Assembly (NCBI RefSeq): GCF_000813745.1
Contig: NZ_JWLC01000018.1
Coordinates: 62,001 to 126,000 of the forward strand
Source: Leisingera sp. ANG-M1
GTDB taxonomy: Bacteria; Pseudomonadota; Alphaproteobacteria; Rhodobacterales; Rhodobacteraceae
DNA: 64,000 nt
Reading direction: 5' to 3'
In this document: positions 3,974 through 44,598 of the stretch, piece after piece
Layout of the letters: the number at the start of each line of letters is the position of its first letter
Numbering within the stretch: the stretch's first letter is position 1
The notes under the pieces: generated by a model
Seen by the model: the letters and a program-made list of their open reading frames with translations, nothing else
Databases searched by the model: none
What the model was told of the DNA's origin: nothing
Position numbers and translations under genes: made by a program

Positions 3974-5305
3974 ATGAAAGACTGGCTGACGATGACCGCC
4001 GCTGATCTGGGACGCGGGATTGAGGCGGGTGAAATCAGCCCTGTGGCGCTGACCCGCTGCTATCTGGACGCGATCGATGCCCATCCGCTGAAAGACCGGA
4101 TTTATACCCAAGTGACCCATGACCGCGCCCTGGCCGAGGCTGCAGCCGCTGAGGCGCGCGCCGGCCTGGGGCTGCGCCGCTCGCTGCTGGACGGCGTACC
4201 CATCAGCTGGAAGGACCTGTTCGACAGCGCAGGCACCACAACCGAATCCGGTTCGGACCTTCTCAAGGGCCGGGTGCCGGAGCAGGACGCAACAGTGCTG
4301 CGCAATGCGACGCTCATGGGGACTGTTTGCCTCGGCAAGACCCATATGAGCGAGCTGGCCTTCTCCGGCCTTGGCTTCAACCCGGTCAAGGAAACGCCGC
4401 CTTGCGTCAATGATCCAGAGGCCGCACCCGGAGGGTCGTCCTCCGGCGCAGCGGCGTCTGTGACCTACGGGCTGGCGGCTGCGGGCATTGGCTCGGACAC
4501 TGGCGGATCGGTGCGGATCCCGTCGTCCTGGAATGATCTGGTGGGGCTCAAGACCACCTCCGGCCGGATCACCCTGGAAGGCGTGGTGCCGCTGTGCCTG
4601 AAGTTCGACACCATCGGCCCGCTGGCGCGCTCCGTCGAGGACGCGGGCCTGCTGCTGGGCGTCTTGGAAGGCACCCCCGGCCCGGATCTGCGCTGCCCGG
4701 CTTCACTCAAAGGGCGCCGTTTCGCCGATTTACAGACTGTGGCGCAGAATGATCTGGACCCGAAAATAGCGGCAGCTTACCAGGAAACGCTTCAAAAGCT
4801 GAAAGATGCAGGCGCCGAAATCGTGCCGCTGGACGTGCCCGCGCTGGAAGAGGCCATGGGCCTCAGCCCGATTCTCTACACCACCGAAGCCTACGGGCTG
4901 TGGAAAGACGTGATCGAAGCTTCGCCGCAGCTGATGTATGCGGAAATCCTGGAACGCTTCCGCTCCGGCGCGCAATTCAGAGGCTCGGACTACGTCGCGG
5001 CCTGGGGCAAGCTGGAGCAGTGCCGGATGGCCTGGGATCAGGCCGTGGCCGGGTTTGATGCGGTGCTGAGCCCGGTGTCTCCAATCCTGCCGCCGAACAT
5101 GGAGCGGTTGCAAAACGATCACGGCTACTATGTCCAATCCAACCTGCTGGCGCTGCGCAACACCCGGATTGGCAATCTGATGGGGCTCTGCGGGCTGTCG
5201 CTGCCGACCGGCACCCCTAGCTGCGGCCTGCAGGTGCTGGGCCAGCCGGACTGCGAAGAGGCCCTGCTGCGCATCGGCGCCGCGATCGAGGCGGCCTTGG
5301 CCTGA
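3974..5305 (+). CDS. Amidase (amidase signature family)
   Basis: 443 aa. The Ser-cisSer-Lys triad of the amidase signature family is visible: Lys80 in SWKDLFDSAG, cis-Ser155 in PGGSSSGAAASV, and the nucleophile Ser179 in GSDTGGSVRIPS. The length is normal for the family. Substrate is unknown. It could be a general amide hydrolase; it is not next to gatB, so a role as GatA is unlikely. The start at 3974 follows AGGAG at 3958-3962; a GTG at 3962 is an alternative but would overlap that ribosome-binding site. The 111-bp gap to the divergent ubiH should hold both promoters. Confidence 0.85.
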   Translation: MKDWLTMTAADLGRGIEAGEISPVALTRCYLDAIDAHPLKDRIYTQVTHDRALAEAAAAEARAGLGLRRSLLDGVPISWKDLFDSAGTTTESGSDLLKGRVPEQDATVLRNATLMGTVCLGKTHMSELAFSGLGFNPVKETPPCVNDPEAAPGGSSSGAAASVTYGLAAAGIGSDTGGSVRIPSSWNDLVGLKTTSGRITLEGVVPLCLKFDTIGPLARSVEDAGLLLGVLEGTPGPDLRCPASLKGRRFADLQTVAQNDLDPKIAAAYQETLQKLKDAGAEIVPLDVPALEEAMGLSPILYTTEAYGLWKDVIEASPQLMYAEILERFRSGAQFRGSDYVAAWGKLEQCRMAWDQAVAGFDAVLSPVSPILPPNMERLQNDHGYYVQSNLLALRNTRIGNLMGLCGLSLPTGTPSCGLQVLGQPDCEEALLRIGAAIEAALA

Positions 5306-23947: not shown

Positions 23948-26398
23948 ATGAGCGATCTTCCCAACAAGGCCCGTGTGGTCATTATCGGCGGCGGCGTGAT
24001 CGGCTGCTCGGTGGCCTATCACCTTGCGAAACTGGGCTGGAAGGATGTGGTGTTGCTGGAGCGCAAGCAGCTGACCTCCGGCACCACTTGGCACGCCGCG
24101 GGCCTAATTGCCCAGTTGCGCGCCACCGCCAACATGACCAAGCTGGCGAAGTACTCGCAGGAGCTCTACGGCTCGCTGGAAGAAGAAACCGGCGTCGCCA
24201 CCGGCTTCAAGCGCTGCGGCTCGATCACCGTGGCCCTGACCGAAGAGCGCAAGGAAGAGATCTTCCGCCAGGCCGCCATGGCGCGCGCATTTGGCGTTGA
24301 GGTCGAGGAAATCTCGCCGGAAGAAGTCAAAGCCCGCTACGAGCACCTGAACATTGGCGATGTGACCGGCGGCGTGTGGCTGCCGAAAGACGGCCAGGGC
24401 GACCCGGCCAACATCGCACTGGCCCTGGCCAAAGGCGCCCGCCAGCGCGGCGCGCTGGTCAAGGAGCGCATTAAGGTCACCGGCATCTCCAAGGAAGGCC
24501 GCCGCGTCACTGGCGTTGACTGGGCCAGCGACGACGGCCAGTCCCAGGGCCACATCGAAGCCGACATGGTGGTGAACTGCGCCGGCATGTGGGGCCACGA
24601 GGTTGGCCGCATGGCGGGCGTCAACGTGCCGTTGCACGCTTGCGAGCACTTCTACATCGTGACCGAAGGCATCGAAGGCCTGACCCAGATGCCGGTGCTG
24701 CGCGTCCCGGACGAATGCGCCTACTACAAGGAAGACGCAGGCAAAATCCTGCTCGGCGCCTTTGAGCCCAACGCCAAGCCCTGGGCAATGAAGGGTATCC
24801 CGGACAGCTTCGAATTCGACCAGCTGCCCGAGGATTTCGACCACTTCGAGCCGATCCTTGAAGCCGCCTGCAACCGTATGCCCATGCTGGCCGAGGCAGG
24901 TATCCACACTTTCTTCAACGGCCCCGAGAGCTTCACTCCGGATGATGCCTACCACCTGGGCCTGGCGCCCGAGATGGACAACTTCTGGGTTGCCGCGGGC
25001 TTCAACTCGATCGGCATCCAGTCCGCGGGCGGCGCCGGCATGGCGCTGGCGCAGTGGATGGACGAAGGCGAAAAGCCCTTCGATCTGGGCGACGTGGACA
25101 TCTCCCGTATGCACCCGTTCCAGGGCAACAAGACCTATCTGTTCGAGCGCTCGAAAGAGACCCTGGGCCTCTTGTACGCCGACCACTTCCCCTACCGCCA
25201 GAAGGCCACCGCCCGCGGCGTGCGCCGCACCCCGTTCCACCACCACCTGCTGGAGCAGGGCGCGGTTATGGGCGAGATCGGCGGCTGGGAGCGTGCCAAC
25301 TGGTTTGCCAATAAAGGCCAGGAGCGCGAGTACCAGTACAGCTGGAAGCGCCAGAACTGGTTCGAGAACTCGGCGGCTGAACACAAGGCAGTCCGCGAAA
25401 ACGTCGGCATGTACGACATGTCCTCTTTCGGCAAGATCCGCGTCGAAGGCCCGGACGCCGAAAAGTTCCTGAACTACATCTGCGGTGCCAACCTGTCGGT
25501 TCCGGCGGGCAAGATCGTCTACACCCAGTTCCTGAACTCCCGCGGCGGCATCGAGGCCGACGTGACCGTCACCCGCCTGTCTGAGACCGCCTATCTGGTG
25601 GTGACCCCGGCGGTGACCCGTCTGGCCGACCAGACCTGGATGATGCGCCACGTGGGCGACCACCGCGTGGTGATCACCGATGTGACCGCAGGCGAAGGCG
25701 TGCTGGCTGTAATGGGCCCGAACGCCCGCGAGCTGCTGCAGAAGGTCTCGCCGAACGACTTCTCCAACGAAGTGAACCCCTTCGGCACCGCGCAGGAGAT
25801 CGAGCTGGGCATGGGCCTCGCCCGTGTGCACCGCGTGACCTATGTGGGCGAACTCGGCTGGGAGATCTATGTCAGCGCCGACATGGCGGGCCACGCGTTC
25901 GAAACCCTGTGGGAAGCAGGCCAGGACATGGGGCTCAAGCTCTGCGGCATGCACATGATGGACAGCTGCCGCATCGAAAAGGGCTTCCGCCACTTCGGCC
26001 ACGACATCACCTGCGAGGACAATGTGATCGACGCAGGCCTGGGCTTTGCAGTGAAGACCGACAAGGCGGATTTCATCGGCAAGGCCGCCGTGCTGGAGCG
26101 TAAGGAAACCGGACCCAAGAACCGCATGCTGCAGTTCAAGCTGACCGATGCTGAACCGCTGTTGTTCCACAACGAGCCGATCATCCGCGACGGTAAATAC
26201 GTGGGCTACCTCAGCTCCGGCAACTACGGCCATACTCTGGGGGCTGCCATCGGCATGGGCTATGTGCCGTGTGAAGGCGAGAAAGCAGCTGACGTGCTGG
26301 CCTCGACCTACGAGATCGACGTTTGCGGCGTAAAGGTGAAGGCAGAGGCCTCCCTGAAGCCGATGTACGATCCGAAATCGGAGCGGGTGAAGGCCTAA
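23948..26398 (+). CDS. SARDH-type FAD/folate oxidoreductase (sarcosine dehydrogenase-like)
   Basis: 816 aa, with the same two-domain plan as the protein at 19368: DAO domain then GcvT-like folate domain. The flavin region reads LTSGTTWHAAGLIAQLRAT, closer to mammalian SARDH (SGTTWH) than to DMGDH (AGSTWH), and EEETGVATGFKRCGSITVA also fits. Predicted reaction: sarcosine to glycine with transfer of the carbon to tetrahydrofolate, closing the betaine-to-glycine pathway. The choice between sarcosine and dimethylglycine as substrate rests on these motifs only. It ends 33 nt before a strong terminator. Confidence 0.83.
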   Translation: MSDLPNKARVVIIGGGVIGCSVAYHLAKLGWKDVVLLERKQLTSGTTWHAAGLIAQLRATANMTKLAKYSQELYGSLEEETGVATGFKRCGSITVALTEERKEEIFRQAAMARAFGVEVEEISPEEVKARYEHLNIGDVTGGVWLPKDGQGDPANIALALAKGARQRGALVKERIKVTGISKEGRRVTGVDWASDDGQSQGHIEADMVVNCAGMWGHEVGRMAGVNVPLHACEHFYIVTEGIEGLTQMPVLRVPDECAYYKEDAGKILLGAFEPNAKPWAMKGIPDSFEFDQLPEDFDHFEPILEAACNRMPMLAEAGIHTFFNGPESFTPDDAYHLGLAPEMDNFWVAAGFNSIGIQSAGGAGMALAQWMDEGEKPFDLGDVDISRMHPFQGNKTYLFERSKETLGLLYADHFPYRQKATARGVRRTPFHHHLLEQGAVMGEIGGWERANWFANKGQEREYQYSWKRQNWFENSAAEHKAVRENVGMYDMSSFGKIRVEGPDAEKFLNYICGANLSVPAGKIVYTQFLNSRGGIEADVTVTRLSETAYLVVTPAVTRLADQTWMMRHVGDHRVVITDVTAGEGVLAVMGPNARELLQKVSPNDFSNEVNPFGTAQEIELGMGLARVHRVTYVGELGWEIYVSADMAGHAFETLWEAGQDMGLKLCGMHMMDSCRIEKGFRHFGHDITCEDNVIDAGLGFAVKTDKADFIGKAAVLERKETGPKNRMLQFKLTDAEPLLFHNEPIIRDGKYVGYLSSGNYGHTLGAAIGMGYVPCEGEKAADVLASTYEIDVCGVKVKAEASLKPMYDPKSERVKA

Positions 26399-27872: not shown

Positions 27873-28970
27873 GTGCTGGCTCTGACCTCACTCGTTTTGT
27901 CCCATTTCCGCTCGCATTTGCGGGCGGAATTGCGTTTGGACGGGCGGCCGGTGGCCATCCACGGCAACAATGGTGCGGGCAAGACCAATATACTGGAAGC
28001 GGTGTCGCTGTTCTCGCCGGGGCGCGGTTTGCGCCGCGCCAGCGCCGCCGACATGGCGCGCCAGCCGGAGGCGCTGGGGTGGAAGCTGAGAGGGGAACTG
28101 CGGGCGCCGACGCAGGTCTATGAGGTGGAAACCTGGTCCGAGGGCGGCAATGCCCGGCAGGTGAAAATCGACAATAAATCCGCCAGCCAGATTGCCTTGG
28201 GGCAGGTGGCGCGGGTGGTTTGGCTGATCCCTGCGATGGACCGGCTGTGGATCGAGGCGGCCGAGGGGCGCAGGCGGTTCCTGGACCGGATTGCGCTCAG
28301 TTTCGAGCCCTCCCATGCTGAGGCGTCGCTGGCTTATGAAAAGGCGATGCGCGAGCGCAACCGCCTGTTGAAGGAACAAATCCGCGACGCCGCATGGTAC
28401 CGGGTGCTGGAAGACCGGATGGCCGCGGCCGGGCACCGGATCCATGCGGCCCGGGTGCAGGCGGTGGACCTGCTGCAGCTGGCGCAGGCGGAGGCGGAAA
28501 CCGCGTTTCCGGCGGCTGAGCTGGAGCTCATGCAGTCGGAGGGCAGCATGCCGTCGACGGAGGGAGACTTCCGGGAAGCGCTGGAGGAGAGCCGTTTCCG
28601 GGATCTGGCGGCGGGGCGTACCCTGGTGGGGCCGCACCGCACCGATCTGATCGGCACCTACCAGACTAAGGGTGTTCCGGCCAAGGATTGCTCGACCGGC
28701 GAACAGAAGGCGCTGCTGGTGTCGCTGATCCTGGCAAATGCGCGGGCGCTGGCGCAGCGCGAGGGGGCTCCCCCGATCCTGCTGCTGGACGAGGTTGCGG
28801 CGCATCTGGATGCGGCGCGGCGGGCGGCGCTTTATGATGAGATCTGCGCCTTGGGAACCCAGGCCTGGATGACCGGGACCGGGCCGGAATTGTTTGCGGA
28901 GCTGGGCGCGCGGGCGCAGATGCTGGAAGTTTCCGACAGCAGCGGCGCATCAGAGGTTATTCACCGATGA
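27873..28970 (+). CDS. recF: DNA replication and repair protein RecF
   Basis: 365 aa SMC-like ATPase. Walker A GNNGAGKT is at residues 31-38; the signature region is STGEQKALLVSLILANARAL and Walker B is PPILLLDEVAAHLD. RecF with RecO and RecR loads RecA at gaps. The start is GTG (VLALTSLVLSHFRSH), with GGGAG seven nucleotides upstream; no ATG fits the conserved N-terminus. It lies 62 bp after dnaN and overlaps the next gene by 4 nt, so it is co-transcribed with it. Confidence 0.95.
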   Translation: MLALTSLVLSHFRSHLRAELRLDGRPVAIHGNNGAGKTNILEAVSLFSPGRGLRRASAADMARQPEALGWKLRGELRAPTQVYEVETWSEGGNARQVKIDNKSASQIALGQVARVVWLIPAMDRLWIEAAEGRRRFLDRIALSFEPSHAEASLAYEKAMRERNRLLKEQIRDAAWYRVLEDRMAAAGHRIHAARVQAVDLLQLAQAEAETAFPAAELELMQSEGSMPSTEGDFREALEESRFRDLAAGRTLVGPHRTDLIGTYQTKGVPAKDCSTGEQKALLVSLILANARALAQREGAPPILLLDEVAAHLDAARRAALYDEICALGTQAWMTGTGPELFAELGARAQMLEVSDSSGASEVIHR

Positions 28971-36074: not shown

Positions 36075-36776
36075 ATGAACCACACTGTCCTTGTCTGCGA
36101 TGACGAAGCTCCATTGCGCCAGATGCTCAAAGATTATCTCGGTGATTGCGGATATGCCGTGCGGGAGGCTGCGGATGCTGCCGCGATGATGGCGCTGCTG
36201 GCGGAAGAAGAGCCCGACCTGGTCATTCTGGATGTGCAGATGCCGGGCAAGGACGGCTTGGCAGCTCTGCGGGAAATCCGGGCGGCCTCAAAAGTGCCGG
36301 TGATGATGCTGACCGCGGCAGGCGACGTTGTGGACAAGGTGCTGGGCCTGGAATTCGGAGCCGATGACTATATCGTCAAACCGGTGGACCTGCGTGAGCT
36401 GCAGGCCCGGATCAAGGCTGCAATCAGGCGCAGTGCGATACAGGAGCAAGCGCAAAAGGTTCATGACCGGTTGAGCGGAACAGTGGACTTCGGCCCCTGC
36501 AGGCTCGACCTGGACGGAGCCCGGCTGTTTGGGCCGGACGGTGAAGAGATTGCCATCACGGCCATGGAATTCAGCCTGCTGCGGGTCTTTGCCGAAAACC
36601 GCGGCCGGACCCTGAACCGGGACCAGCTGCTGGACAAGGCGCATGACCGGGGCTGGGAGCCGTTTGACCGGTCGATAGATCTTCGCATTTCCCGGCTGCG
36701 GCGCAAGATCGAGACAAACCCCGCCAAACCGGAGGTAATCCGCACGGTGCGCGGTATCGGTTATATTTTCGGGTAA
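36075..36776 (+). CDS. OmpR-family response regulator
   Basis: 233 aa. The receiver domain has acidic pocket DDE at 9-11, phospho-acceptor Asp53 in LVILDVQMPGKDG and Lys in DDYIVKPVDLRELQARI. The C-terminal winged helix (GPDGEEIAITAMEFSLLRVFAENRGRTLNRDQLLDKAHDRGWEPFDRSIDLRISRLRRKIE) is Trans_reg_C. It pairs with the kinase 2 nt upstream and may bind the GATACA repeats before that gene. The targets are unknown. Confidence 0.93.
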   Translation: MNHTVLVCDDEAPLRQMLKDYLGDCGYAVREAADAAAMMALLAEEEPDLVILDVQMPGKDGLAALREIRAASKVPVMMLTAAGDVVDKVLGLEFGADDYIVKPVDLRELQARIKAAIRRSAIQEQAQKVHDRLSGTVDFGPCRLDLDGARLFGPDGEEIAITAMEFSLLRVFAENRGRTLNRDQLLDKAHDRGWEPFDRSIDLRISRLRRKIETNPAKPEVIRTVRGIGYIFG

Positions 36777-36819
36777 GCCGCGCTGCGGCGGCAATGGCCG
36801 GTTTGTCCTAGGGCTGGTC

Positions 36820-37128
36820 TCAGCCCATGATCAGGTATTCCACGGTCGTGAACGCCATCTCGTAAGGGCAGAACAGATCCGGCTGACCTGCAGCAGAGGC
36901 TGGCTCGGGATCCGGGTTTACGGCGGGAGCCAGCTCCAAACCGGTGAATATGACCGGGTCGTGGCCGTCGGTATCTGCAAGCGGCACCGGCTCGATCCAG
37001 GCTTTGCCGCGTGCAAAGGCCAGCGGTTCGTCGCTGCCGTCCAGGTCAAACCAGGCGGGGGCAGACGGTCTGTCTTCGTTCCCTTCCGAGCTTCCGGGCA
37101 CGCCATCGAGTTTTGCAAATACGGGCAT
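36820..37128 (-). CDS. Small acidic protein with Hcp-like N-terminus
   Basis: 102 aa with an excellent AGGAGA ribosome-binding site 7 nt before the ATG. It is acidic and Pro-rich and has no membrane segment or signal peptide. The first residues, MPVFAKLDGVPGSSEG, resemble the opening of type VI secretion Hcp tube proteins (MxxFxKxDGxxGES), but the length and the rest do not match Hcp, and no type VI genes are nearby. It is convergent with the OmpR-type regulator and downstream of the TetR gene on the same strand. I do not recognise the family. Confidence 0.6.
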   Translation of the reverse strand: MPVFAKLDGVPGSSEGNEDRPSAPAWFDLDGSDEPLAFARGKAWIEPVPLADTDGHDPVIFTGLELAPAVNPDPEPASAAGQPDLFCPYEMAFTTVEYLIMG

Positions 37129-37252
37129 CGTCGTGTCTCCTGTTCTCCTGCGCAGCTAGCGCCAGGCGAACACTGGATACGGGGGCCAGTTGTCAGAATG
37201 TCACCGCGTTCTGTTTCAAATGTACCAGCAGCACCACGGCCTTGCCGGCCTG

Positions 37253-37918
37253 TCAGCTGTTGGCGCGGTGCGGGTGAGGTTGCAAGGCTTCTGCGTGGCC
37301 TGGAAACAGAGTCTGTGCAAACTGCAATGTCTGCGCCAAGGCGTCTTCGCGGCTGCAGCTGTGCGGGAACAGGTGCAGCTTTTGCCAATAGCCATCGGTT
37401 AGCGTGTCAATCCAATTACCCGCCAGCAGGGCCTTGCTTGGGTCCTCGGGCGCCAGCTGCTGGCAGATGCCGCGCAGAGCGTCAGCGCGTTTCCTTTCAA
37501 ACACGCTGGTGATCTCGGCATATTGCGGGACAAAGTTCTGCTCGCCCCAGAAAGCAAACCAAACCGCTAGAGTGTCGGGAGTGCACAGATCCGCGTCAAA
37601 GTCGGCGGTCAGGACGGCGCGCAGCCGGGCAGCGGGATTTTGCGGAGCTTGCTCCAGAGCCGCGTGCCAGCGGGTCTCGTATTTCTCGTAGAGATCGCGC
37701 AGCACCGCGGCCAGGATGCCGTTCTTGGACTTGTAATAGAAAACCGCCACACCCTGCGACAGACCGGCCTCGTTCGCCACGGTCGCAAGCGTGGTCTTGG
37801 CCAGCCCATGGGTCACGATCGAGCGGAAAGCGGCGTCAAGAATCTGCCTCCGCCGCTTGTCTGCGTTGTCCTTGCGTTCCTTGCGCGGCTTCTTGCCGCT
37901 GGCGGCAACTGCGCTCAT
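37253..37918 (-). CDS. TetR-family regulator, BetI-like
   Basis: 221 aa. The N-terminal helix-turn-helix (RRRQILDAAFRSIVTHGLAKTTLATVANEAGLSQGVAVFYYKSKNGILAAVLRDLYEKY) and the downstream AVWFAFWGEQNFVPQYAEI with LAGNWIDTLTDGYWQKLHL match the BetI_C group. BetI represses choline-to-betaine genes in enterobacteria; relatives control other amine catabolism. It is divergent from the class III aminotransferase, with the palindrome TTGAGCGCTCAA in the gap, so it most likely represses that gene and itself. There are no betA, betB or choline transporter genes here. Confidence 0.87.
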   Translation of the reverse strand: MSAVAASGKKPRKERKDNADKRRRQILDAAFRSIVTHGLAKTTLATVANEAGLSQGVAVFYYKSKNGILAAVLRDLYEKYETRWHAALEQAPQNPAARLRAVLTADFDADLCTPDTLAVWFAFWGEQNFVPQYAEITSVFERKRADALRGICQQLAPEDPSKALLAGNWIDTLTDGYWQKLHLFPHSCSREDALAQTLQFAQTLFPGHAEALQPHPHRANS

Positions 37919-37989
37919 GCCAACCTCATGCGTTCCTCTATTTCCCTTGTTTCACAATTACCTGAGGCTGTCAGCCCGCTAAAATTTAA

Positions 37990-39554: not shown

Positions 39555-40694
39555 ATGATTCCCGTCATGCAGGTTTTGGACTACACCCATAACCAAGGGC
39601 TTGTGGCGGCTTCCTTTTTCGTTGCGCTGGTAGCAGGGTTCACGGGGCTGTCGCTGACCAAAGGACTGTCCGCGCGCTCCTTTGCGCAGCGGAAGCTGGC
39701 GATTGCACTGTCGTCTGTGGCGCTGGGCGGCGGCATCTGGTCGATGCATTTTGTGGCCATGCTCGGTCTGCAGCTGCCGATCCAGTTCTATTATGACTCC
39801 GCGGTCACTCTGGCCTCTGCGCTGGTGGCGATACTGGTGGTCGGTGTGGCGCTCCTGATCCTGCATTTCTGGCAGCGCACCCGGATGACCCTCGCATTGG
39901 CCGGCACTACGGTAGGGCTGGGGGTGCTGGCGATGCATTACATCGGCATGGCCGGGCTGGAGCTGTGCCGCGCGCTCTATACACCCGGGGGCATTGCCTT
40001 GGCGGTTGCGGCCTCCTGCGCGCTGAACATCGCGGCGTTCTCAATTGCCTATGGCGAGCGCAGCCACCGCAACATTCTTTTGGGCACTGCCGGGTTTGGT
40101 TTGGCGGTTTTCACCGTCCATTTCATCGCAATTGCTGGCACCAGTTTCATTCCGCTGGAAGTGACCAGCCAAGTCGGGCCCCTGATCGGCAATGAGACAC
40201 TGGCCATTGGCGTGGTGCTGACCAGCTTTGCCCTTTGCGGGGCGTTTCTGCTGACCGGGGTGACATTCCTGAAGCCATCGTCTGCCGCACAGGTAGAGCC
40301 GCCCGACGGGTCGGCTCCTCAGCCCGGAGTCCAGGCAGAACCGGAAGCCGAGGCGGCGCCGGTCTCGCGGCAGATCCCTTATGAGCAGGAAGGCCGTACC
40401 CAGTTCTTCAGCACCGATGCGGTGGCGGCGATCCGGGCCGAGGGGCATTACACCCATCTCTACACCGCGGCTGGCCAGCACTTTTGCAGCTGGTCTATCA
40501 CCGAGGCCGAGCGGCGGCTGGCGCAGACGGATTTCATCAAGACCCACCGCTCTTATCTGATCAACCCGGCCCATGTCAGCGGGTTCGAAAGGCTGAAAGA
40601 CAATGGTGTCTGCCACTTCGATATCCCGGGACTGGCCAAGGTGCCGGTGTCGCGCTCGCGGCTCAAGGACGTGCGGGCGGCATTGGGGGTGTAG
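39555..40694 (+). CDS. coxC: CoxC-like membrane regulator (MHYT sensor plus LytTR DNA-binding domain)
   Basis: 379 aa. Seven or so membrane helices carry three MHYT-type motifs (SMHFVAML, AMHYIGMA and TVHFIAIA), proposed to bind copper or sense gases such as CO, O2 or NO. After a Pro/Glu-rich linker (about 235-275) comes a LytTR domain (TDAVAAIRAEGHYTHLYTAAGQHFCSWSITEAERRLAQTDFIKTHRSYLINPAHVSGFERL). CoxC and CoxH of Oligotropha have this architecture, and the gene lies directly upstream of coxM. Two direct repeats after its stop are its likely target. Start: ATG 39555 or 39567; no clear ribosome-binding site. Confidence 0.87.
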   Translation: MIPVMQVLDYTHNQGLVAASFFVALVAGFTGLSLTKGLSARSFAQRKLAIALSSVALGGGIWSMHFVAMLGLQLPIQFYYDSAVTLASALVAILVVGVALLILHFWQRTRMTLALAGTTVGLGVLAMHYIGMAGLELCRALYTPGGIALAVAASCALNIAAFSIAYGERSHRNILLGTAGFGLAVFTVHFIAIAGTSFIPLEVTSQVGPLIGNETLAIGVVLTSFALCGAFLLTGVTFLKPSSAAQVEPPDGSAPQPGVQAEPEAEAAPVSRQIPYEQEGRTQFFSTDAVAAIRAEGHYTHLYTAAGQHFCSWSITEAERRLAQTDFIKTHRSYLINPAHVSGFERLKDNGVCHFDIPGLAKVPVSRSRLKDVRAALGV

Positions 40695-40700
40695 GCCGCG

Positions 40701-40733
40701 CGCATTTCGTGCGCTCCTATTCGCATTTCGTGC
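40701..40733 (+). promoter_or_regulatory. Two CGCATTTCGTGC direct repeats, probable LytTR operator of coxMSL
   Basis: The 12-mer CGCATTTCGTGC is perfectly repeated at 40701-40712 and 40722-40733, a 21-bp period. LytTR proteins bind pairs of short direct repeats about 21-22 bp apart, and each copy contains TTCGTG, which fits the TTNNNG half-site reported for the CO-responsive RcoM regulators. The pair ends 88 bp before the coxM start and directly follows the LytTR-domain gene. Confidence 0.75.
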
Positions 40734-40821
40734 AGAAAGCCGCGAAAATGGTTGAAATCCCCGGGCCTTAGCAGGCCGCTGCAGACAGTCTCTTCCTCAG
40801 CCAGTTGAGGGAGGACAAGCG

Positions 40822-41676
40822 ATGATACCAGCGGCGTTTGAGTATCACAGACCGGCGGATATGGCCGGCGTGATCGCGCTTTTGGAAGAACACGGGGATG
40901 ACGCGCGGGTAATGGCGGGCGGGCACAGCCTGATCCCGATGATGAAACTGCGCATGGCAGAGATACCCCACCTGATCGACCTGCAGGACGTGGCCGGGCT
41001 GAAGGGGATTGCTGTGGCTGAAGGCCGGGTAACCCTCGGCGCCATGGTAACTCAGCATGAGCTGATCCAGCACCAAGGGTTGGCCAATACCGCCCCGATC
41101 CTGCGCGAGGCTGCGCTGGTGATTGCCGACCCGCAGGTGCGCTACATGGGCACCGTCGGCGGCAATGTCGCCAATGGCGATCCGGGCAACGACATGCCTG
41201 GCCTGATGCAGTGCCTGGATGCGGAGTTCACCCTTGTTGGCCCCGATGGCCAGCGTACTGTCGCCGCCCGCGACTTCTATGAAGCGGCCTATATGACCGA
41301 GCGCGAGGATGAAGAAGTTCTGACAGCGATCAGCTTTGCGGCGCCTTCGGGCGGCTACGCTTATGAAAAGCAGAAGCGCAAGATCGGCGACTACGCAACG
41401 GCTGCCGCTGCGGTGATCCTGCAGAAGGACGGCGGCACCTGCGCGGCGGCCTCCATCGCCATGACCAACCTCAGCGATGTGCCGGTGTGGTCGGACGCGG
41501 CAGGTGAGGCCCTGACGGGCACCTCCGTGGACGCTGCAGCCGTCAGCGCCGCCGTTCAGGCTGTTCTCGATGACATCGACCCGGTTGAGGACAACCGCGG
41601 CCCGGTGGCGTTCAAGCGCCATGTGGCCGGTATCATCCTGACCCGCGCCATCCAGCGCGCCTGGGGCCGCGCATGA
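40822..41676 (+). CDS. coxM: Carbon monoxide dehydrogenase medium (FAD) subunit
   Basis: 284 aa. FAD-binding motifs of the xanthine-oxidase-type medium subunit are present: [27 protein letters not shown] (AGGHS) and [16 protein letters not shown] (TIGG). It passes electrons from the iron-sulfur subunit to quinone. GGGAGGAC precedes the ATG. It is the first structural gene after the LytTR repeats and is followed by coxS after 13 bp and then coxL, the standard M-S-L order of CO dehydrogenase. Confidence 0.95.
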
Positions 41677-41689
41677 GGGAGGAGCGGAG

Positions 41690-42184
41690 ATGAGCGACAA
41701 GATGCATATCAAACTGAAGGTGAACGGCGAGGACCGCGAGTTTCTGGCCGAACCGCGCGAGCTGCTGATCTATGCCCTGCGCGAGCACCTGGACCTGACA
41801 GGCCCGCATGTGGGCTGCGACACCTCCCACTGCGGTGCCTGCACCGTCACCATTGACGGCAAATCGGTGAAATCCTGCACCATGTTCGTGGCCCAGGCCA
41901 ACGGCGCCGAGATCACCACCATCGAAGGCATCGGCCAGCCCGACGCTTTGCACGTGCTGCAGGAGAGTTTCCGCGAGCATCACGGGCTGCAATGCGGCTT
42001 CTGCACCCCGGGCATGATCACCCGCGCGACCAAGCTGCTGGAGGAGAACCCGGACCCGACGGAGGAGGACATCCGCTTTGGCATGGCCGGCAATATCTGC
42101 CGCTGCACCGGCTACCAGAACATCGTGAAATCGATTCAGGTTGCCGCCACTGAAATGAACTCAGCCAAGGAGGCCGCGGAATGA
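41690..42184 (+). CDS. coxS: Carbon monoxide dehydrogenase small (2Fe-2S) subunit
   Basis: 164 aa. The plant-type [2Fe-2S] cluster is bound by [12 protein letters not shown] (Cys43, 48, 51) and a further Cys in KSCTMF. The second cluster is bound by [11 protein letters not shown] and [14 protein letters not shown]. Size and motifs are exactly those of the CoxS/CutS family. The stop overlaps the coxL start (ATGA), so both are translated from the same message in near-equal amounts. Confidence 0.96.
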
Positions 42185-44598
42185 ACGATATGACCCCCGA
42201 CCGCGACGACCGTTCCGCAAACCTCAAGGGCATGGGATGCTCCCGCAAGCGGGTGGAAGACGTCCGCTTCACCCAGGGAAAAGGCAACTACGTCGATGAC
42301 GTGAAACTGCCCGGCATGCTGCACGGCGACTTTGTGCGCTCTCCCTACGCCCATGCGCGGATCAAATCGATTAATACTGAGGCCGCCATGGCGCTGGACG
42401 GTGTGGTGGCCGTGCTGACGGCCGAGGATCTGGCACCGCTGAGCCTGCACTGGATGCCGACCCTTGCGGGCGACAAGCAGATGGTGCTGGCCGATGGCAA
42501 GGTACTGTTCCAAGGCCAGGAGGTCGCCTTTGTGGTGGCGCGCGACCGCTATGTGGCCGCCGACGCAGTGGAGCTTGTCGAGGTCGACTACGAAGAACTC
42601 CCTGTCCTCGTCGACCCGTTTGAGGCGCTGCAGTCCGATGTGGTCCTGCGCGAGGATCTGGAGCCCGGCGCCGACGGCGCGCATGGCCCCCGCAAGCATC
42701 ACAACCACATCTTCCTGTGGGAAGCGGGCGATGAGGAAGCCACCAACCAGGTGCTGGACGAAGCCGAAGTGGTGACGGAAGAGACCATGTACTACCACCG
42801 CACCCACCCTTGCCCGCTGGAGACCTGCGGCTCGGTGGCGTCGATGGACAAGGTGAACGGCAAGCTCACTCTCTGGGGCACCTTCCAGGCGCCGCATGTG
42901 GTGCGCACTGTGGCCTCGCTGCTGTCGGGGATTGAGGAGCACAACATCCGGGTGATCTCGCCAGACATCGGCGGCGGTTTTGGCAACAAGGTGGGGGTCT
43001 ACCCCGGCTATGTCTGCTCCATCGTGGCCTCGATCGTCACCGGCAAGCCGGTGAAATGGATCGAGGACCGGATGGAAAACCTGATGTCCACCGCCTTTGC
43101 CCGCGACTATTGGATGACCGGCAGGATCTCGGCCACCAAGGAGGGCAAGATTACCGGGCTGCACTGCCATGTTACGGCCGACCACGGGGCCTTCGACGCC
43201 TGCGCCGACCCTACCAAATACCCGGCCGGCTTCATGAACATCTGCACCGGCTCCTATGACATTCCGGTGGCCTATCTGGGTGTCGACGGCGTCTACACCA
43301 ACAAGGCGCCGGGCGGGGTCAGCTACCGCTGTTCCTTCCGTGTAACTGAGGCGGTCTATTTCATCGAGCGGATGATCGAGGTTCTGGCGATTGAGCTGAA
43401 CATGGACGCGGCTGAGCTGCGCCGGATCAACTTCATCAAGAAGGAGCAGTTTCCCTACACGGCTGCACTGGGCTGGGAATATGACTCCGGCGACTATCAC
43501 ACGGCTTGGGACAAGGCGCTGAAAACGGTGGAATATGACGCGCTGCGCCGCGAGCAGGCGGAGCGGGTCGAGGCCTTCAAGCGCGGCGAGACCCGCAAGC
43601 TGATGGGCATCGGGCTGAGCTTCTTTACCGAGATCGTCGGCGCCGGGCCGGTCAAGAATTGCGATATTCTCGGCATGGGCATGTTTGACAGCTGCGAGAT
43701 CCGCATCCACCCGACAGGCTCGGCCATCGCACGGCTCGGCACCATCAGCCAGGGCCAAGGGCATGCGACCACCTTTGCCCAGATCCTGGCCAGTGAGACC
43801 GGCATCCCCGCCGACAGCATCACCATCGAGGAAGGCGATACCGACACCGCACCCTACGGCCTCGGCACCTACGGCTCGCGCTCGACCCCGGTGGCGGGGG
43901 CCGCGACGGCTCTGGCAGGCCGCAAGATCCGCGCAAAGGCGCAGATGATCGCGGCCTACCTGCTGGAGGTGCACGACGACGACGTGGAATTCGACGTCGA
44001 CCGCTTCGTGGTCAAGGGCGCGCCGGAGCGGTTCAAGACCATGAAGGACATCGCCTATGCCGCGTATAACCAGGCCATTCCGGGCGTGGAACCGGGGCTG
44101 GAGGCAGTGAGCTACTACGACCCTCCGAACATGACCTATCCCTTTGGCGCCTATGTCTGCGTGATGGATATCGACGTTGACACCGGGGTGCCGGAGATCC
44201 GCCGTTTCTATGCGCTGGATGACTGCGGCACCCGCATCAATCCGATGATCATCGAAGGTCAGGTGCATGGCGGCCTGACCGAGGCGCTGGCCGTCGCGCT
44301 GGGGCAGGAGATTGCCTATGACGATCTGGGCAATGTGAAGACCGGCACGCTGATGGACTTCTTCCTGCCCACCGCCTGGGAGACGCCAAACTACGAGACG
44401 GATCACACGGTGACCCCTTCGCCGCATCATCCGATCGGCGCCAAGGGCGTGGGTGAAAGTCCGCATGTGGGCGGGGTGCCCTGCTTCTCCAATGCGGTGC
44501 AGGATGCGTTCCGGGCCTTTGGCCTGCGCCATACGCAAATGCCGCATGATCATTGGCGGATCTGGAAAACTGCCAATGACCTGGGCCTGCATGGGTGA
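42181..44598 (+). CDS. coxL: Carbon monoxide dehydrogenase large (Mo-Cu) subunit, form I type
   Basis: 805 aa. The active-site loop is SYRCSFR at 381-387, where form I enzymes have AYxCSFR; Cys384 corresponds to the copper-binding Cys388 of Oligotropha and separates it from the form II AYRGAGR enzymes. The C-terminal catalytic Glu is in [21 protein letters not shown], and [18 protein letters not shown] is another family block. The enzyme oxidises CO to CO2 at a MoSCu centre with a molybdopterin cytosine dinucleotide cofactor. The Ala-to-Ser change at 381 is unusual to me. A hairpin and family A box follow before coxD. Confidence 0.95.

Follow-up and report, generated by a model that had tools for sequence, protein, structure and literature searches.

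What switches the carbon monoxide dehydrogenase genes coxMSL of a roseobacter on and off, and does the DNA in front of coxM hold the site at which this happens? Roseobacters are among the marine CO consumers. Microbes equipped with CO dehydrogenases use up the greater part of oceanic CO production (PMC13240472, excerpt). In the open-access literature, searched by titles and the beginnings of abstracts, we found no description of how coxMSL is switched in roseobacters and none of a CoxC operator next to coxM. We analyzed a stretch of 64,000 nucleotides (64 kb, the window) from Leisingera sp. ANG-M1, in which the gene of the putative regulator CoxC precedes coxM and a pair of direct repeats lies between the two.

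The repeat pair and its surroundings

The features needed in the following are listed here with their window coordinates.

39555–40694, plus strand: coxC, MHYT-LytTR carbon monoxide sensor and proposed binder (Pfam MHYT 101 bits, LytTR 62 bits)
40401–40685, plus strand: LytTR DNA-binding domain of CoxC, residues 283–377 (PF04397, 62 bits)
40701–40713, plus strand: predicted operator unit 1, CGCATTTCGTGCG; conserved column block in 94 loci; 21.4 bits with a matrix whose training set includes this locus
40722–40734, plus strand: predicted operator unit 2, CGCATTTCGTGCA, 21 bp after unit 1; 23.5 bits with the same matrix, trained in part on this locus
40743–40755, plus strand: place of a third unit, CGAAAATGGTTGA, strongly degenerate; register taken from relatives; −9.8 bits with the same matrix, trained in part on this locus
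40808–40815, plus strand: ribosome-binding site of coxM, AGGGAGGA, conserved in 94 loci
40822–41676, plus strand: coxM, flavoprotein subunit of CO dehydrogenase (Pfam), proposed first controlled gene
41690–42184, plus strand: coxS, named from place and sequence
42181–44598, plus strand: coxL, named from place and sequence

The 12-bp word CGCATTTCGTGC occurs exactly at 40701–40712 and again at 40722–40733, 21 bp from start to start, within the 127-bp gap between coxC and coxM. The sequence-only reading had pointed out this pair and its flanking genes, and both were found as it described them. The first copy begins 6 nt past the coxC stop codon, and 88 nt separate the second from the coxM start codon at 40822. 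Both units contain TTCGTGC, which corresponds to a TTNNNGC core.

No further exact copy of CGCATTTCGTGC is present in the 64-kb window. With up to two mismatches, 11 single copies were counted where 11.9 are expected. What is rare is thus not the loosely matched single word but the spaced pair: by our own arithmetic, a perfect 12-bp direct repeat should arise in about 4 per 10,000 gaps of 127 bp. In the complete 5.37-Mb genome, GCANNTCGTG-N11-GCANNTCGTG has a single exact match, the pair in the coxC-coxM gap; allowing up to two mismatches gave 13 matches compared to 20 for the reversed control.

The MHYT domain of CoxC is its membrane domain. Two LytTR domains were found in the whole genome, that of CoxC and one in a further protein that shows no sensor domain above the Pfam cut-off. 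RcoM, which joins a heme PAS domain to LytTR, is not among these two proteins and is unsupported as the binder of the repeats.

CoxL of the window reads SYRCSFR at the motif position. The active-site motif of form I enzymes is AYxCSFR.

Conservation in the gaps of relatives

When 198 genomes of the family were searched for CoxC, 69 showed a match of any kind and about 40 a strong one; the search was extended to the genus, to plasmids and to named genomes (best 80 of at least 586 loci). From the 176 loci collected, 131 contain coxM and 102 are distinct over the last 120 bp upstream of it. A coxC gene no more than 600 bp ahead of coxM is present in 97 of these 102; the remaining five are L157, in which coxC is 3.8 kb off and the pair is perfect, L170, unusable with only 69 bp of upstream sequence, and L172, L173 and L174.

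In each of the 97 distinct gaps we determined the highest-scoring pair of GCANNTCGTGC units, with spacings of 12 to 32 bp allowed. As this unit was picked after the first alignments had been inspected and some loci are close kin, the resulting counts are not independent tests. The best pair is spaced by 21 bp in 50 gaps, 20 bp in 42, 19 bp in three, and 15 and 23 bp in one each, which places 92 of the 97 at 20 or 21 bp. The gap with a best spacing of 15 bp is that of Afipia, in which a 20-bp pair scores equally (14/18). Pair scores of at least 15/18 were reached in 93 of the 97 gaps, while among 510 shuffled regions two reached 15 and none scored higher; in 94 of the 97, none of 60 shuffles matched the observed score. 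Across the set, the identity of coxM to the window's coxM drops as low as 60 %. L094 and L108 possess both coxC and coxM without a significant pair in the shuffle scan. This comparison of other coxC-coxM gaps had been proposed by the sequence-only reading, and the absence of the repeats that it named as a possible outcome was not seen.

A column profile was built from 94 loci, comprising those with a score of at least 15 and a spacing of 19–21 bp plus L157 and leaving out L049, L093, L094 and L108. The conserved unit spans 13 bp, CGCANYTCGTGCA, and appears as two blocks of the form C-G-C-A-N-Y-T-C-G-T-G-C/A-A/G separated by an unconserved spacer carrying little information. G at unit position 0 and T at position 5 are found in 94 of 94 loci in both units. 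Besides the two units, the ribosome-binding site is the only strongly conserved block. Loci of one subgroup encode a CoxC with an extended C-terminus; there, unit 1 forms part of the coxC coding sequence and is nonetheless preserved (e.g. L053).

Specificity in family and class

Among 197 genomes of the family, 26 contain the strict pair GCANNTCGTG-N10/11-GCANNTCGTG, each of them once, so that no second strict-pattern site indicating a wider regulon was found in any of the 26. It stands directly upstream of coxM in 25 genomes, the exception being G046, and the reversed pattern gave 20 matches across the same 197 genomes. Expressed differently, 25 of the 43 coxM-bearing family genomes carry the strict form. 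A chance origin of the repeat pair is ruled out by the window and genome counts, the shuffles and this specificity throughout the family.

That the repeats act in RNA, or are a functionless duplication that arose by chance or mutation, is very improbable. A 12-bp repeat can come from duplication and a stop codon is close to the site, but conservation of the unit next to an unconserved spacer in 94 loci, its retention even within coxC coding sequence and the position of 25 of the 26 strict family matches at coxM all speak against this explanation.

Where coxC lies apart from coxM (L022, L200), the pair sits at coxM (L157, L184). In G007, where 3.8 kb separate the two genes, the pair is perfect and remains at coxM; in L184 the pair is present though coxC of that genome is about 11 kb distant.

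Four of the 43 coxM-bearing family genomes (G008, G083, G102 and G109) lack coxC. No pair was detected in L173 (G008) and L172 (G083), where 54 and 42 of 60 shuffles, respectively, were equal or better; L170, with its short upstream sequence, belongs to G102. L174 (G109) features a partial pair that 7 of 60 shuffles equal and that scores above 15 bits with the matrix described below; it is perhaps a relic. The LytTR search returned no domain in G083 and G102 and one each in G008 and G109, and this coxC-less control set is small and not clean.

In a scan of the class, coxM reached the cut-off in 13 of 289 genomes. Nine of the 12 newly read loci show a pair of at least 15 at 20 or 21 bp, among which those of L184 and L188 were equalled by 1 and 2 of 100 simple shuffles. 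The three exceptions are L185 and L187, both beside coxC, and L190, which has no adjoining coxC match. L185 contains coxC and coxM with no significant pair. In L187 (G381) the best unit pair before coxM is 31 bp apart, about three helical turns, though with the matrix a pair spaced by 20 bp scores 15.0 bits.

The Afipia operator as a reference

The sequence-only reading held that the DNA target of CoxC is, to its knowledge, not established. This is wrong, as a target was published in 2024: according to the available excerpt of PMC11347149, the LytTR domain of Afipia carboxidovorans CoxC binds the promoter PcoxB, upstream of coxB, via three direct repeats of the form TTNNNGCN. That work is a reporter and gel-shift study in E. 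coli, in which CoxC represses at PcoxB and CO together with copper relieves the repression (PMC11347149, excerpt). The CoxC proteins of Afipia and of the window are 31 % identical.

We derived a 13-column matrix from 79 of the 94 profile loci, all of Rhodobacterales type; Afipia was excluded, and exclusions followed a hand-made list of loci taken as outside Rhodobacterales. Whenever this matrix is applied to our loci, 79 of those scored are its own training loci. All 133,057 bp of the Afipia plasmid pHCG3 were scanned on both strands for pairs 19–22 bp apart. The first rank, with 22.3 at 25687, lies inside the PcoxB region, and the second, with 21.4 at 28727, is the Afipia coxC-coxM gap. Rank 3, with 17.0 at 37939, starts 14 nt past a second MHYT-LytTR gene in the coxH-coxI gap (names assigned from the gene order in the excerpt of PMC11347149), and rank 4, with 15.2, lies within a hydrogenase gene. 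When 200 column-permuted matrices were used instead, 186 placed none of their top three matches in the five cox gaps, 14 placed one and none placed more. Four other spacing ranges yielded at most one cox-gap match of low score among their top four.

As a matrix made without Afipia ranks the proven operator PcoxB first and cox gaps second and third, the repeats before coxMSL are very probably a CoxC operator, a prediction drawn from sequence comparison, as is binding of the site by the CoxC of this genome. The operator proposal of the sequence-only reading thereby stands in its core, with a conserved pair and a matrix that finds the Afipia operator; its description as a pair does not extend to many relatives, in which the repeats form a triple.

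A regulator other than CoxC could be considered, as the genome encodes a second LytTR protein and L174 retains a partial pair without coxC. However, that second protein shows no sensor domain above the Pfam cut-off, and in three of six operator-bearing genomes checked (G055, G007 and G151), all of which have the pair, the only LytTR domain found is that of CoxC. Together with the matrix placing the proven CoxC operator first, this disfavors another binder, which we regard as improbable.

The site described here shares with PcoxB the direct repeats, the TTNNNGC core, the cox genes and an MHYT-LytTR CoxC, and it obeys the same sequence rule. It differs in lying after coxC and before coxM instead of upstream of coxB, and in consisting of two identical 12-bp words 21 bp apart. 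The Afipia-type operator has three repeats and overlaps the −35 box of the promoter it controls (PMC11347149, excerpt). A third unit is seen at rhizobial loci and is degenerate in the window, and no sigma-70-like promoter was found in 40600–40900. Sites of this kind are already known; what is added here is a conserved site next to coxM together with its consensus and, possibly, a new register for PcoxB.

The published PcoxB repeats, taken from the mutant primers (PMC11347149, excerpt), are TTACCGCC at 25704, TTTGGGCA at 25733 and TTGCGGCA at 25759, hence 29 and 26 bp from start to start. The matrix units, CGCAGTTCATGCG at 25687 and CGCCGTTGGTGGA at 25708, follow a different register. TTTGGGCA lies 20 bp after the second matrix unit, with a poor matrix score of −9.9, and the published third repeat is unexplained by the matrix register. 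The published mutation of repeat 1 changes G to C at 25709, a base that is invariant in the 94-locus profile, so that the loss of binding in this mutant fits both registers. A re-registration of PcoxB is possible from the sequence.

From the consensus operator at coxM, two CoxC-type sites in addition to PcoxB are expected for the cox cluster of Afipia. The pair at 37939–37971 behind coxH is a third CoxC-type pair of this cluster, with units 20 bp apart. The second MHYT-LytTR gene of pHCG3 (36724–37924) is annotated as two overlapping reading frames.

Third unit, promoter and direction of control

A motif search in the 79 non-redundant stretches following unit 2 returned TTTC[AG]TTGATTT with a log-likelihood of 148, compared to 52–60 in four shuffled sets. 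Among the 40 sites above 4 bits, 31 fall at two offsets that correspond to 20–21 bp after unit 2, which means that 31 of the 79 regions carry the motif at the expected offset. It may represent a degenerate third repeat or a promoter element. In the window this third unit is degenerate and very weak.

A search for a −10 element downstream of the third unit yielded a leader block instead. In many Rhodobacterales loci (e.g. L016, L027 and L028), this conserved block of approximate sequence AGAACATTTGCTT is located ahead of the ribosome-binding site, some 30 nt upstream of coxM; it seems absent from the window and its close relative L039. A TATGCAG-like box spotted by eye is too loose to be claimed as a −10 element. 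Concerning autoregulation, no pair of at least 15 bits was detected upstream of coxC in the loci scanned, many of which covered some hundred bases; the only far upstream match of the matrix is PcoxB of Afipia, upstream of coxB.

We propose that the LytTR domains of CoxC would bind successive CGCANYTCGTGCA units on one helix face, two turns (20–21 bp) apart; two of the units are strong, and many relatives add a third, weak one. If the Afipia case is a guide, CoxC would be bound in the absence of CO and keep coxM off; CO, which the MHYT domain would bind with copper assisting, would release it, allowing CO dehydrogenase to be made. Repression of coxM is the somewhat likelier sign of control, taken from a single orthologue with 31 % identity. 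A consensus operator before coxM in combination with a copper-dependent CO sensor provides a directly testable switch for coxMSL.

CoxC might also activate from the same site, binding with CO upstream of the promoter and recruiting RNA polymerase in the manner of RcoM1. RcoM1 of Paraburkholderia xenovorans LB400 is a heme-based sensor and activator bound upstream of −35, at repeats TTCNNGCA whose 12–13 bp spacers amount to 20–21 bp from start to start (PMC11347149, excerpt). The likeness of TTCGTG to the TTNNNG half-site of RcoM, noted by the sequence-only reading, is borne out against this consensus: unit and spacing match, with TTCGTGCA of unit 2 fitting fully and TTCGTGCG of unit 1 differing in the last base. 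Between the end of the site and the ATG lie 88 bp, and no good −35/−10 pair was found beside it, which leaves room for activation of the RcoM1 type. On the other hand, the one CoxC examined represses and is set free by CO (PMC11347149, excerpt), and we consider activation unlikely. The site also differs from that of RcoM1, a heme sensor, in its degenerate third unit and in being linked to a gene for an MHYT-LytTR protein.

Classical LytTR sites are pairs of 9-bp direct repeats 10–13 bp apart (PMC11347149, excerpt). They share with the site upstream of coxM the direct repeats at about two helical turns and a linked gene with a LytTR domain, but the unit here is a longer and different one (13 bp, CGCANYTCGTGCA) and the linked gene encodes a one-component membrane gas sensor.

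MHYT-LytTR genes apart from coxM

In Sinorhizobium meliloti, all four loci examined (L055, L207, L211 and L212) show an MHYT-LytTR gene followed by repeats scoring 31.6–33.4 bits. The same order is seen in Rhizobium leguminosarum, with 28.9 bits in L209 and a weak 13.2 in L208. No coxM was found within 4 kb at the loci of these two species (9.1-kb stretches). Their repeats consist of TTCGTGC-like units at +21 and +19. In Rhizobium jaguaris (L210) the repeats are followed by coxM. L078, L101, L106 and L110 carry CoxC-like genes but neither coxM in the stretch nor a good pair in the 400 bp that follow the gene, so the repeats do not generally go with the regulator gene by itself. The repeats accompany a lone regulator gene in one rhizobial group; considering the pairless lone regulators together with the pairs that stay at coxM when coxC lies apart, they usually precede the presumed target gene.

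A further, somewhat doubtful reading is that the repeats next to coxM represent the principal and more ancient type of CoxC operator among alphaproteobacteria and follow one rule, that the published register of PcoxB is wrong, and that Sinorhizobium and Rhizobium employ the module of regulator and operator anew for something other than CO oxidation. Should this be true, the rule would consist of CGCANYTCGTGCA units, up to three in register and 19–21 bp apart; on pHCG3, the first two real units of PcoxB would begin at 25687 and 25708 and the third at about 25728, and the effect of the published change in repeat 1 would be due to the G at 25709. The reused module would then stand before a degenerate EAL-domain reading frame.

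Such a short degenerate EAL-domain frame follows the repeats at 5184–5217 of L055 and likewise in L207, L209, L211 and L212. It scores 30.0 and 29.5 bits, just under the Pfam cut-off of 31.3; part of the domain is missing, and the frame varies between strains.
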